From assembly GCF_017352095.1 (NCBI RefSeq), contig NZ_CP071463.1, positions 1,116,001 through 1,180,000 of the forward strand: a stretch of 64,000 nucleotides of DNA, read 5' to 3'. The DNA is from Natrinema longum (GTDB lineage: Archaea; Halobacteriota; Halobacteria; Halobacteriales; Natrialbaceae). The position numbers and the translations under genes were made by a program. Positions 12,752 to 18,018 of this stretch are shown here, piece after piece (position 1 is the stretch's first letter; every line of letters begins with the position of its first letter). The notes beneath the pieces are model-generated. The model was given only the letters and a program-made list of their open reading frames with translations. It was not told the origin of the DNA and searched no databases.

Positions 12752-13078
12752 CACGACCGGCGTCCGCGTGAGCGTGCCGGCGACGGCCGCGTAGGGACCG
12801 CGACCGAAGACGACGTCGGGATCGAACCGGATCGCTTGGAGCCCGATCGAGAGGAACTGGCCACCCAGTTCGCGGCCGAACGCGAGCGTCGAGTAGCCCT
12901 CCGTTTCGTGGTCGCCGTACACCCGGTAGGGAACGCCGAAATAGTCGAGGAGATCGGTCGTACAGGCGTACTCCCGAGTAAGCACGAGCACGTCGTGTCC
13001 CGCCCGCTCGAGGCGGTCGACGGCGTGTCGGTACAGGTGGACGTGTGCGGGCGTATTGGCCAGGACGAGGATCCGCAT
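12740..13078 (-). pseudogene. DUF354-type glycosyltransferase, N-terminal third only
   Basis: The frame starts at ATG 13076-13078 with MRILVLANTPAHVHLYRHAV and continues through RAGHDVLVLTREYACTTDLL, FDPDVVFGRGPYAAVAGT and PVVLVL. This is the N-terminal Rossmann half of the DUF354/UDP-GlcNAc 2-epimerase-like glycosyltransferases (GT-B fold). It should run on to about 340 residues. At 12740-12751 the homology ends and the frame enters the antisense of the DUF7282-type gene. The catalytic C-terminal half is missing. The gene diverges from the GT4 gene at 13243, a common pairing for glycan genes. Confidence 0.7.
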
Positions 13079-13104
13079 CGGCCACACCTACACCCCCTCG
13101 ACCC

Positions 13105-13112
13105 TTTGTAAT
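13105..13112 (-). promoter_or_regulatory. Shared promoter-like motif (ATTACAAA variant)
   Basis: On the minus strand this reads GATTACAAAGGG. Its upstream end lies 34 bp before the start codon of the truncated DUF354 gene. It is the weakest match in a set of six ATAACAAA-like elements in front of glycan genes. Confidence 0.35.
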
Positions 13113-13202
13113 CGTATCGCTACGGGGGACCACGGTCGGAAAGTACCGGCTACGAGAGACACGTCTAGCTGTACGTGAAGAACAATCCCGGAGCGAGGTG
13201 GC

Positions 13203-13210
13203 TAACAAAA
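13203..13210 (+). promoter_or_regulatory. Shared promoter-like motif before the GT4 gene
   Basis: CTAACAAAACGG lies 40 bp upstream of the ATG at 13243. It belongs to the ATAACAAA-like set found at 13105, 20090, 21151, 21301 and 25968. Confidence 0.4.
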
Positions 13211-13242
13211 CGGCTCCGGCTCGTCCCTGCGGACGACTCGAG

Positions 13243-14226
13243 ATGCACGTTCTGACGGTGACGACGAACGAGGACGCCCCGTTCCTGACCCAGCAGGTTG
13301 ACGCACTCGAGGAGCGGGGGGTCTCCGTTTCGACGGTGTCGATCGCAGGGGAGGTCGACGCCGATACCGACCGGAGCCCGACGGATTACGTCCGGACCGT
13401 CCCACGACTCCTCCGGGAGGCGAGGAACGGCTACGACCTGCTCCACGCCCACTACGGGTTGACCGCGCCGATGGCGCTCGCACAGCTCCGAACGCCGGTC
13501 GTCCTCTCGTTGTGGGGGTCGGACGTACACGGCCCCGTCGGCCCGATCAGCCGGCTCTCCGCGCCGTTCTGTGACGCGGTCGTCGTCATGTCCGAGGAGA
13601 TGCGCGAGGTGATCGGCGACGACTGTACGGTGATCCCCGACGGCGTCGACCTCGAGACGTTCCGGCCGGAGCCACAGGCGCGAGCCAGGGACCGGGTCGG
13701 GTGGGACGACGGGGAGGACGCTTATAATGTGCTTTTCCCGTACTCGCCCGCACGCGGGGTGAAAAATTATCCACGGGCAGAGCGTATCGTGACCGTCGTC
13801 GACAACCTCCTCGAGCGGCCGGTCCGGCTCCGGACCGTCTACGGCGTCGACCACGACGCCGTGCCCGACTACATGAACGCCGCCGACGCGCTCCTGTTGA
13901 CCTCCTACAGCGAGGGGTCGCCCAACTCGGTGAAGGAAGCCCTGGCCTGTAACCTGCCAGTAGTCGCCGTCGACGTCGGCGACGTCCGGGAGCGACTGGC
14001 CGGCGTCGCTCCCTCACGCGTCGCCACCAGCGACGAGGAGCTAATCCGGGGGTTGATCGACGTCCTCGAGCGCGGGGAGCGATCCAACGGCCGCGAGGCC
14101 GCCCGCGAGGTCAGCATCGACCGGACCGCAGAGCGGATGCTCGAGGTATACGAGCGGGTCGCCGGCCGACCCATCGAGACCGACAGCGAGAAACGGCCCG
14201 CACGGAGCGCGACTCGACTCGAGTGA
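13243..14226 (+). CDS. Glycosyltransferase family 4 (GT-B fold)
   Basis: The 327-residue cytosolic protein starts at the ATG at 13243 (MHVLTVTTNEDAPFLTQQVD). The N-terminal domain has DLLHAHYGLTAPMAL and LSLWGSDVHGP. The donor-binding C-terminal domain has NVLFPYSPARGVKNYPRAER, the YMNAADALLLTSYSEGSPNS E-x7-E-type nucleotide-sugar site, and KEALACNLPVVAVDVGDV. This is the GT4 (glycosyl transferase group 1) pattern. It probably adds a sugar to a lipid-linked or nucleotide-activated surface glycan precursor. A much longer in-frame extension upstream exists, but it is not conserved-looking. A copy of the gene's 3' end recurs at about 14968-15080. Confidence 0.88.
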   Translation: MHVLTVTTNEDAPFLTQQVDALEERGVSVSTVSIAGEVDADTDRSPTDYVRTVPRLLREARNGYDLLHAHYGLTAPMALAQLRTPVVLSLWGSDVHGPVGPISRLSAPFCDAVVVMSEEMREVIGDDCTVIPDGVDLETFRPEPQARARDRVGWDDGEDAYNVLFPYSPARGVKNYPRAERIVTVVDNLLERPVRLRTVYGVDHDAVPDYMNAADALLLTSYSEGSPNSVKEALACNLPVVAVDVGDVRERLAGVAPSRVATSDEELIRGLIDVLERGERSNGREAAREVSIDRTAERMLEVYERVAGRPIETDSEKRPARSATRLE

Positions 14227-14276: not shown

Positions 14277-14390
14277 CTATAGTAGTCGTTGAACCGATGG
14301 ACGCATCGCTCGCGAATCAGCGGCCAGCACGAACGATGCTGGCCGCTCGAGTGCGAGCGGGGGTGCAATGACGTTCAACGACTACTATAG
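14277..14390. mobile_element. MITE-like palindromic element, copy 1
   Basis: The 114-bp element is bounded by perfect 18-bp terminal inverted repeats, CTATAGTAGTCGTTGAAC at 14277-14294 and its complement at 14373-14390. Inside is an 11-bp hairpin, AGCGGCCAGCA at 14319-14329 pairing with 14337-14347. The nearly whole-length foldback has no coding frame. It shares termini and the internal GTGCAATGAC with copy 2 at 29477-29562. The right arm encodes the last residues and stop of the minus-strand AbrB-PIN gene. No clear target-site duplication is visible, and I cannot name the parent insertion sequence. Confidence 0.8.
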
Positions 14391-14821
14391 TTCTCCGTGT
14401 CGGGCCCGAGTGCAACGCGGTCGAGTTCGATCGTCTCGAACGCCTGATCGCTCGAGAGGATCGCGTCGTTCGCGAGCGCAGCGTGGAAGGCGTCGAACGT
14501 GTTCAACCCGTCGTCGATGTACGCCGACGCCTGAAAAACGGCATCCGGATCGACGTCCGTCTCGGCGAGTTCGAGGATCGCGAGCGTCGCTTCCTCTCGA
14601 TCAAAGGCGAACCGCTCTTCGACCAGAAAGAGTTCGATGAACGTCGCCAGCGAGACCTCGAGGTCACCGCGATGCGACTCGAGCGGATCGTCCGGAACAG
14701 GCATGAGTTTGATATCGTCTTCCAGTTCGACGAGTCGGTACCGCTCGCCGAAGCGCTCGCGGACCGCCTTCGGAATCGTGATCCGTCCGCGTTCGTCCGT
14801 CGTGATCCCGGACGGACACAT
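14375..14821 (-). CDS. AbrB antitoxin fused to an N-terminally deleted PIN toxin
   Basis: The 148-residue protein begins with a complete swapped-hairpin AbrB/MazE-like DNA-binding domain (residues 5-47: TTDERGRITIPKAVRERFGE, then YRLVELEDDIKLMPV). From about residue 54 it becomes the middle and end of a PIN-domain VapC toxin: VSLATFIELFLVEERFAFDR, then FQASAYIDDGLNTFDAFHAA and DAILSSDQAF. The PIN start, with the first catalytic aspartate (usually in a hydrophobic 'h-D-T/S' strand), is missing, and so is the antitoxin tail that normally wraps the toxin. The joint lies at the CTCGAG at 14657-14662. The final YSSR and TGA stop come from the adjacent MITE. Loss of toxicity is inferred; DNA binding could persist. 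Confidence 0.72.
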   Translation of the reverse strand: MCPSGITTDERGRITIPKAVRERFGERYRLVELEDDIKLMPVPDDPLESHRGDLEVSLATFIELFLVEERFAFDREEATLAILELAETDVDPDAVFQASAYIDDGLNTFDAFHAALANDAILSSDQAFETIELDRVALGPDTENYSSR

Positions 14822-14939: not shown

Positions 14940-14974
14940 GTCCGCTTCATCGCTTCGGGCACGTGTGCCTCGAG
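14940..14974 (-). pseudogene. Short copy of an epimerase 3' end
   Basis: Bases 14942-14974 resemble the C-terminal codons of the epimerase gene at 17038-18018 (28 of 33 bases). On the minus strand they read LEAHVPEAM, the same nine residues as near that protein's end. The similarity stops at CCTCGAG, where a different copied fragment begins. Confidence 0.5.
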
Positions 14975-15080
14975 CGCGACGAGTGCCCTGACGGCCGCGA
15001 AGCCGCTCGCGCGGTCGGCATCGACCGGACCGCAGAGCGGATGCTCGAGGTGCACGAGCGGGTGGCTAGTCAGGGTGTCG
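14968..15080 (+). pseudogene. Copied 3' end of the GT4 glycosyltransferase
   Basis: The frame reads DGREAARAVGIDRTAERMLE then VHERVA. This closely matches the end of the GT4 protein at 13243-14226, GREAAREVSIDRTAERMLEV. Similarity begins at the CCTCGAG shared with 14064-14070 and fades by about 15080. The piece has no start and no upstream domain, so it is a displaced fragment. The remaining flanks, 14822-14939 and 15081-15170, hold no gene; the latter marks the beginning of an AT-rich segment. Confidence 0.65.
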
Positions 15081-15170: not shown

Positions 15171-16173
15171 ATGTCGGATAGATATTCCAACATGCCAACT
15201 CGTCGTAGTGCTCTGAGAAAGATTGCTATCGGTTGGGAGTAGCCTATCACTTCCGACTACTGTGGTGGGTCAAGGAAGTGCAACGCTTGGACAGGTTCGC
15301 TCCAATGATTTTGAACCCCAGTGTGGCGGTGGAGGTCAGAGCAATCCTCATGTTCGAGATAGTTCAGTAAAGTCGAATTTTCCAAATGGAGAAGGGAAGA
15401 TGTTCAGTTCGGCTGGGAGTGCGTATGGACAAACCAGCGATATCGTTTGGACTGGTGAACATTGGACCGTTGATTTTCATACGTGGTCCTTTGCGGTGAA
15501 TTCATACGAATTAGACTCCGGCGAAACTGGCACTGAGCCGATTTATCGTGGCCAGCATCGTATACAGGTTGATATGGAAACGAAACCCGACTTGGTCTCG
15601 ACACAACCCTATGATGATGTAGAATGGGGAATCAGCATCGTCGGACGGTCGGAAGCATCACACAAGGTCGATGAAGCAGTTGTATCTACGGCAAACAAAA
15701 TTCTGTCGAACATGACGGAAGGAGTCGGATCAGTAGTTGATGCGATTGGTATCTATAACCGATTACAGAAGGCCACCGTTGGTGCAGATATCGACAAGAC
15801 ATGGGTTCCGTCTCAGGGTCAGCAGCGCCTCGGTCATTATCTCCGATGGACCCATACTTATCCGCCACAGGACGAGCTCGGAGAATCAAGTATTACTGGG
15901 GCGATTACTAACAAGTTATCTAATGCGTTATATAAGACGGAAGTTGAATGGACCGGCGATAGAGAGCCAACTGAGAGATATGAGCATACATATAATTATT
16001 ATGTGCCAGTCGGCCCAAAACCGACAAGCTTGTCGCAAAAAGCGAGCAAAAAGAATCTCATCGAGAAACGTCCCGCCAAAGAGGTGAATAATGATAATAT
16101 TGAAGCAAGCGGTGATGAGGAAGTATACGTTCTCCGTCCTGAAGCGTTCAACCAGCCAAATAACGTGTGTTAA
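15171..16173 (+). pseudogene. Tat-exported protein of unknown function, frameshifted in its signal peptide
   Basis: The first frame, from ATG 15171, reads MSDRYSNMPTRRSALRKIAI and stops at TAG 15240-15242. The next frame continues smoothly as VGSSLSLPTTVVGQGSATLG to 16173 (about 310 residues). Joined, they make a textbook twin-arginine signal. The break lies around 15229-15234, within ATCGGTTGGG, where one base too many (or two too few) separates the frames. The mature part is rich in Gly, Ser, Thr and aromatic residues, with no membrane helix (WTGEHWTVDFHTWSFAVNSY, RYEHTYNYYVPVGP). A/T-ending codons dominate, unlike the neighbours. The domain is not recognised. A sequencing error in place of a real mutation cannot be excluded. 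Confidence 0.65.
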
Positions 16174-16200: not shown

Positions 16201-17004
16201 ATGACTATAATGGGGCGAAAATCGATTCTTATTGTTTCATTGTTACTCTTTGGTATCGCGATGATAGCGAACCCGTACTATTTTTGGCCACACCACGGTG
16301 ACGAGGCGTACGAACTCGAGGTCGGGGAGCCGATCGGCGGGGCGGACGACGCGGTCCCGATCGAATCGTTGCCGTCCGAAACAGCCAGGGCGATCGACGA
16401 GGCCCTTGAGGCGTACGAATCCGACGCCGAACCGCCCGTCTACGAGAGTCGGGCGGACGTCCCGACGGATGGGATACCGTCCGAGTCGGGCCGACCCGCC
16501 GTGAGGGCCGACGGAACGGACTACGTCCTGATGATCTCCGAGGTGGATCGATCCCCACCGCTCCTACCCGAGAGTCCGCTCGTTCGCGCGGTGATGGGAT
16601 CCGTCGGCGCAGTCGCAATTACGCTCGGCGCGGTGACGGCGGTGACGGGGAGTAGCCGACTCACGACGCGGCGGGCGTGGGCCATCGTCACGGCCCTCGG
16701 CGTCGTTCTGGGCGCGACGATCGCCTACGACGGCGGGGTCCACGGTGTCGCGATTACCGGGCCCGGAACTGGCCCGCTGGATGCGATCGTCGGAACGCAG
16801 GGACGAACGGCCCTCGGTGTCCTCGCGTGGTTCCTCCCGGCGATCGGTCTCGTCATCGGCGTGGCGTTTCGACGGCGACGATGGCGGGACGGTTCGAGAC
16901 ACGTCGGCGAGCCCCTCTGCGTGCTCGCCTTCGTCGTCGTCACGTGGCTGTTCACGGTACCCGGGATACTCCTCGGAATACTGATTGGCGAAGAAGCCCA
17001 GTAA
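16201..17004 (+). CDS. Membrane protein of unknown function
   Basis: The 267-residue protein has an N-terminal hydrophobic segment (SILIVSLLLFGIAMIANPYY). An acidic extracytoplasmic domain of about 110 residues follows, containing VPIESLPSETARAIDEALEA and RADGTDYVLMISEVDR. Next are four predicted helices: AVMGSVGAVAITLGAVTAVT, WAIVTALGVVLGATIAY, TALGVLAWFLPAIGLVIGVA and CVLAFVVVTWLFTVPGILLG. The 'L-P-x-E-T-x-R-A-I-D-E-A' segment is a pattern often seen in haloarchaeal surface-exposed domains of unknown function. It follows the frameshifted Tat protein by 28 bp and may have been co-transcribed with it. No enzymatic motif is evident. Confidence 0.65.
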   Translation: MTIMGRKSILIVSLLLFGIAMIANPYYFWPHHGDEAYELEVGEPIGGADDAVPIESLPSETARAIDEALEAYESDAEPPVYESRADVPTDGIPSESGRPAVRADGTDYVLMISEVDRSPPLLPESPLVRAVMGSVGAVAITLGAVTAVTGSSRLTTRRAWAIVTALGVVLGATIAYDGGVHGVAITGPGTGPLDAIVGTQGRTALGVLAWFLPAIGLVIGVAFRRRRWRDGSRHVGEPLCVLAFVVVTWLFTVPGILLGILIGEEAQ

Positions 17005-17037: not shown

Positions 17038-18018
17038 TTACCGGATTTCCGCCTGGTACCACTCCATCGCCTCGGGGACGTGGGCCTCGAGGGGGCGATA
17101 CTCGTACCCCAGTTCCTCGCTGGCTTTCCGCGAACTGTAGAACAGCCGCCGGGTCGCGAGCGTTGCCATCTCCCGGTCGAAGGGGAACACGCGCCGATCG
17201 GCGACGGCGTCGACGACCTCGGCGACGGGGCCGGCGGCGTGGATGGCCGTCGCGGGAACCCGGATCCGCGCGGGCGAGCCGCCGACGGTCTCGGCGATCC
17301 GGGAGACCGCCCGGTCGTAGGTGAGGTTCTCGCCGCCGAGGATGTAGTGCTCGCCGGCGGTACCGCGGTCGTATGCCGCCAGCAGGCCGTCGACGACGTC
17401 CGAGACGCCGACGATGCTCAGCCCGCCGGGGAGGTGTGCGGGCATCGTCCGTTCGACGCCCATCGAGAGCAGTTGTGCGGTGAACGCCCCGTCGCCGGGA
17501 CCGAAGATCGACGTGGGATGGACGGTGACGGCGTCTCCGTCGGTGTCGGCGTACCGATCGACCAGGTCCTCCGCCTCGGCTTTCGAGGCCTGATAGGCCC
17601 CGATCGGCTCGGCGACATCGGTCTCGTCGGCGAAATCGGCGTCCCCCTGCGGACGGCGCGTCCCGGACGTACTGGTGAAGACGACCCGGCCCACGTCGCC
17701 GTCGCGACAGGCCTCGAGTACCCGCTCGGTGCCGTCGCGGTTCACTTCCCGGACCGTCTCGGGGCCGGCGCTCCAGAGGCCGATCCCCGCGAGGTGGAAG
17801 ACGGCGTCGGCCCCGTCGACCAGCGGCCGCAGCGTCTCGGTGTCGAGAACGTCACCGACGTGCCACTCGACGCCCTCGAGGTCGCCACGATCCGACGTCG
17901 GCCGGCAGAGTCCGCGGACCGTCCAGCCGTCGGCGAGCAGTCGGCGACAGAGCCGCGAGCCGAGAAATCCGGTCGCGCCGGTGACCGCCGCAATCGGCGG
18001 ATCGGTCGGTCCGGTCAT
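17038..18018 (-). CDS. NAD-dependent epimerase/dehydratase, dihydroflavonol reductase-like
   Basis: The 326-residue extended SDR protein has the nucleotide motif VTGATGFLGSRLCRRLL at residues 13-29, the DAVFHLAGIGLW strand, FTSTSGTRR with the catalytic serine, and Y-x3-K in IGAYQASKAEAEDLV. The VHPTSIFGPGD segment and the tail are typical of NAD(P)-dependent sugar or ketone reductases of the dihydroflavonol-4-reductase type. It is the last gene of a tightly packed minus-strand set (Gfo/Idh/MocA, DUF362, this gene). It overlaps DUF362 by four bases, indicating coupled translation. The substrate is probably a nucleotide sugar, given the neighbours, though related proteins also act on lipids. 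Confidence 0.85.
   Translation of the reverse strand: MTGPTDPPIAAVTGATGFLGSRLCRRLLADGWTVRGLCRPTSDRGDLEGVEWHVGDVLDTETLRPLVDGADAVFHLAGIGLWSAGPETVREVNRDGTERVLEACRDGDVGRVVFTSTSGTRRPQGDADFADETDVAEPIGAYQASKAEAEDLVDRYADTDGDAVTVHPTSIFGPGDGAFTAQLLSMGVERTMPAHLPGGLSIVGVSDVVDGLLAAYDRGTAGEHYILGGENLTYDRAVSRIAETVGGSPARIRVPATAIHAAGPVAEVVDAVADRRVFPFDREMATLATRRLFYSSRKASEELGYEYRPLEAHVPEAMEWYQAEIR

Follow-up and report, generated by a model that had tools for sequence, protein, structure and literature searches.

A fused antitoxin-toxin reading frame in Natrinema longum is very probably the remnant of a decaying vapBC locus

Does an open reading frame (ORF) that joins an AbrB-type antitoxin to a truncated PIN toxin encode a new kind of regulator, or is it what remains of an ordinary toxin-antitoxin pair? 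The question is raised by a fused ORF of 148 aa at 14375-14821 (-) of the window, the 64,000-nucleotide stretch of Natrinema longum DNA analysed here. Its VapB-derived part (14678-14821, (-), fused residues 1-48) aligns without gaps to vapB of three relatives, G018, G002, and G020. The VapC-derived part (14390-14674, (-), fused residues 50-144) corresponds to VapC residues 29-123. When the fusion is compared with the intact orthologue of G018 (L037), fused codons 3-48 match vapB codons 1-46 and fused codons 50-144 match vapC codons 29-123. Pfam places a MazE/AbrB match at fused residues 8-44 (19.9 bits) and a PIN match at residues 52-117 (17 bits), which first enters the PIN model at position 29 of 120, both under the curated cut-offs; NCBIfam places an AbrB-family looped-hinge helix domain at residues 8-27, likewise under its cut-off. 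Both domain matches are thus sub-threshold, yet the DNA-binding domain of VapB is present and gap-free against intact VapB. The AbrB core retains its conserved residues, and the single change within it (G to D in LEDGIKL) falls at a position that is variable among relatives. An earlier note, made from the window alone, had read this frame as an antitoxin joined to a PIN toxin without its beginning. That reading holds with exactly these boundaries, but it missed the difference in frame between the parental genes and the foreign origin of the final four codons and of the stop codon that follows them.

The parental state is preserved within the genus. G018 and G002 carry an intact, overlapping vapB-vapC pair at the same genomic place, flanked as in the window by the 3′ ends of epimerase/SDR and glycosyltransferase genes. 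In these parents, an 81-codon vapB and a 123-codon vapC share 11 bases but are read in different frames; they are separate antitoxin and toxin genes of one operon, whereas the fusion has only the one ORF. The two genomes match the fusion in two segments, with identities of 82% (G018) and 79% (G002) for VapC and 84% and 82% for VapB. By BLASTN against either genome, 178 bp between the vapB front and the vapC rear are absent from the window; the upstream region with the start of vapB is 83% identical to G018, and the remaining part of vapC 92%. Both matches to G018 overlap at the joint, which BLASTN against G018 and G002 places at 14678-14683 (-) and which reads CTCGAG. The parental breakpoints read CTCGAG on both sides in G002, and CTGGAG and CTCGAC in G018. 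Deletion between such short direct repeats would be the simplest mechanism. Because vapB and vapC lie in different frames, a single open frame required a deletion of 3n+1 bases, a one-in-three accident; 178 is of this form, and the two reading frames were therefore merged. The same-place intact orthologues establish what had been proposed from the window alone, that a deletion across a vapB-vapC junction gave rise to the ORF and removed the VapB tail together with the first PIN aspartate.

We then considered what the missing segments mean for the two halves. Native VapB residues ~47 to 81, the C-terminal toxin-binding tail, are deleted, as are VapC residues 1-28, including MYADTDFW with D4 and D6. 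Alignments that combined VapB, VapC, and the fusion put the halves in the wrong place, and residue assignments rest on a VapC-only alignment (A2). Among the 18 intact VapC proteins in this alignment, E42, F88-D89-A90, and H92 are invariant and D6 and D104 nearly so; D4 is found in 17 of the 18, the exception being a glutamate in the paralogue from the window's own genome. The relatives keep an MYAD(T/V/L)D N-terminus, each behind a separate VapB. The fusion therefore lacks D4 (and D6) from the four acidic positions of the PIN domain, and has equivalents of E42, D89, and D104, in agreement with the earlier observation that the first aspartate is missing and the later acidic residues are retained. 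In NTHi VapC1, the active site is described as containing D6, E43, and D99; a D99N protein reportedly loses its toxicity but still forms the promoter-binding complex with VapB1 (PMC4229260). These three residues are the counterparts of the aligned haloarchaeal acidic residues. With only the E42, F88-D89-A90, H92, and D104 group kept, comparison with this active site makes nuclease activity of the fusion unlikely, and a toxin part that has lost the initial aspartates, strand, and helices should be catalytically dead. A substitute for the first aspartate elsewhere in the chain had been named as a possible objection. In intact VapC, 38 positions that include a strand and two helices separate this residue from E42; in the fusion, the acidic residues that the AbrB half brings near the joint (D44, D45, and E48) are just 15 to 19 residues ahead of the E42 equivalent. 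Judged by this spacing, the AbrB half supplies no obvious replacement.

A catalytically dead toxin might still act on a living one. VapC proteins dimerise, and the PIN remnant retains the C-terminal three quarters of VapC, so that it might pair with an active VapC from elsewhere and inactivate it as an antidote or dominant-negative partner. The remnant nevertheless lacks the first PIN strand and the first two helices. Its own genome holds one intact related vapBC pair (C1:1805435-1806088), which is 59% identical to the fusion over 46 AbrB residues and 37% over the PIN part; with this as the only other related VapC available, an antidote role is highly improbable.

Both ends of the frame have also been altered. 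In the alignment with G018, G002, and G020, the column of the native VapB ATG reads CCG in the fusion. The frame is opened instead by an ATG two codons (six bases) upstream, and several of the surrounding bases are unlike those of all three relatives. At the 3′ end of the frame, a 108-bp palindromic, MITE-like element with TA duplications at both sides (14278-14389; element 14280-14387) interrupts the vapC stop (AACTAG) and contributes the last four fused codons (YSSR) and a new TGA stop. Flanks included, positions 14277-14390 form a near-perfect 114-nt palindrome with perfect 18-nt inverted arms at 14277-14294 and 14373-14390. The genome contains one full-length copy of the element and partial relatives, with related 40-bp ends, at six other places. 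Two related ends (L074 and L076) each have their own inverted partner within ~90 bp. The short near-perfect palindrome, the TA duplication, and the several related genomic ends resemble IS-derived MITEs with a TA target duplication. The TA duplication alone would fit IS630/Tc1-mariner-like behaviour; no transposase was identified, and the element matched no named family.

Rearrangement extends into the flanking sequence. The neighbours themselves are a glycosyltransferase gene conserved across the genus (13045-14226, (+), putative start) and, on the other side, an NAD-dependent epimerase/SDR gene conserved in relatives (17038-18018, (-)). Between the fused ORF and the latter lie a partial second glycosyltransferase 3′ end of 99 bp (14968-15066, (+)), 86% identical to 14064-14162, and a 27-bp scrap of the epimerase/SDR 3′ end (14949-14975, (-)), the two overlapping at CTCGAGG. 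Beyond both scraps there are ~2 kb of unrelated sequence and then the intact SDR gene. The locus has undergone repeated rearrangement, and the scraps of both neighbouring genes count in favour of its decay. They also bear on whether the fusion is an assembly or sequencing error, a reading for which we found no supporting point and which is scarcely credible: the genome is one contig with 99.8% completeness, and base-calling errors do not typically produce a 178-bp deletion, a palindromic insertion of 108 bp, and scraps of both neighbours. Two ORFs, of 316 aa (15223-16173) and 267 aa (16201-17004), lie in the ~2-kb stretch that separates the vapBC remnant from the SDR gene. Neither has a Pfam match at 0.1, and neither was matched around the SDR gene in the other genomes of the genus.

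If the fusion were an established family, as the earlier note allowed, the same architecture and joint should recur. Searches of a 29-genome set for the genus, 125 genomes for the family, and a sample of 392 genomes for the order gave no single-segment match across both halves other than the window's own. Viral contigs gave no matches to the fused architecture, and the plasmid records that cover both halves do so as two separate stretches, each annotated as its own gene. Among named records, twelve relatives (Halococcus, Natronobiforma, Halorutilus, and others) each have a pair of ORFs, although two of these pairs (L105 and L106) appear incomplete. Within the window's family, G085 encodes VapB and VapC identical to the proteins of Natronobiforma cellulositropha (L096), which makes Natrialbaceae the probable family. 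Among the papers searched, none described such a fusion in haloarchaea, which is not proof of absence.

A single-genome fusion could still have been retained as an autoregulator or orphan repressor, with an AbrB dimer binding its own or a related vapBC promoter and the PIN remnant serving as a dimerisation or stability module. The complete and conserved AbrB domain, the open frame, and the presence of an intact related vapBC pair in the genome are compatible with this. So is the pattern of substitution: since the split from G018, the window's own branch has accumulated seven synonymous and four nonsynonymous changes (start codon excluded), fewer nonsynonymous changes than expected under neutrality (p = 0.007), compared with 11 and four on the G018 branch. 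The own branch spans periods on both sides of the deletion, so that all this result implies is either a recent break or some residual constraint. A weak branch test for relaxed constraint on the AbrB part gives p = 0.14 without the start codon and 0.02 with it. The mostly synonymous changes in an open frame count against decay, as does the in-frame ATG just upstream of the lost native start. Against a repressor stand the occurrence of the fusion in one genome only among those searched, the alteration of both start and stop regions, and the distance of the sole related genomic locus, which makes recognition of the same operator doubtful. Structure offers little guidance: a phmmer search among solved structures found no PIN relative, and AlphaFold models of intact VapC (mean pLDDT 55.8) and the fused protein (49.6) are too uncertain for use. 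On balance a retained repressor is unlikely. That one deletion created a new stand-alone AbrB-type repressor, with the former toxin as a structural appendage, and that we see it soon after its birth, is very unlikely.

The same junction in related genomes points instead to decay. Intact vapBC is found in two of the six genomes with any vapBC trace between the SDR and glycosyltransferase genes. G020 has kept vapB, with a changed VapB end, and lost vapC; two independent scraps are a 104-bp piece of vapC in G022 (L046 2627-2746) and a 62-bp piece of vapB in the SDR-glycosyltransferase gap of G016 (L043). In G010, of the same species as the window, the junction comprises 129 bp only, without vapBC. 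In several genomes of the genus (loci L045, L048, L052, L054, L055, L057, and L058), this gap is ~1.15 kb and contains other sequence without vapBC similarity. Since relatives have either a normal pair or other wreckage at this spot, a gene fossil is more plausible than a new kind of regulator. An architecture unique to one of the genomes searched, a rewritten start and stop, and decayed remnants in three other genomes favour decay, and the locus is very probably what is left of an ordinary vapBC pair (a type II toxin-antitoxin system of two genes) that was recently broken and is decaying. The origin proposed in the earlier note stands on this account, whereas the regulator functions it envisaged have no positive support.

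The 178-bp deletion took the toxin-binding tail off the antitoxin and residues 1-28 off the toxin, and by a one-in-three chance joined both frames. The MITE-like element entered the toxin stop codon, and the antitoxin start region was rewritten, each either before or after the deletion. The present state is most likely that of a gene inactivated not long ago and now being lost, with toxicity presumably lost and a selected function probably lacking; any remaining product would be at most a weak AbrB-type DNA binder. Both halves derive from a VapBC pair of AbrB/MazE/SpoVT-type VapB and PIN VapC (PF04014 and PF01850), but unlike in such pairs the antitoxin tail and toxin N terminus are deleted, the genes are fused, and neither component is complete. 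Another parallel is that of solitary or decayed chromosomal toxin-antitoxin genes, in which parts outlive the pair, as do the vapB alone and the scraps in the other genomes; here, the broken halves happen to share one frame.

Taken alone, the fusion is ordinary gene decay. The comparison is of modest value in that, at one intergenic site of a haloarchaeal genus, vapBC is found intact, fused, without its toxin, and reduced to scraps of two kinds, which together form a short natural record of chromosomal toxin-antitoxin loci dying. The history of the window's copy may include a further step. Its vapBC part is 93% identical to that of G018, whereas its SDR gene is 94.9% identical to that of G010 and 84.7% to that of G018, which suggests that the vapBC copy came by transfer from a G018-like lineage.
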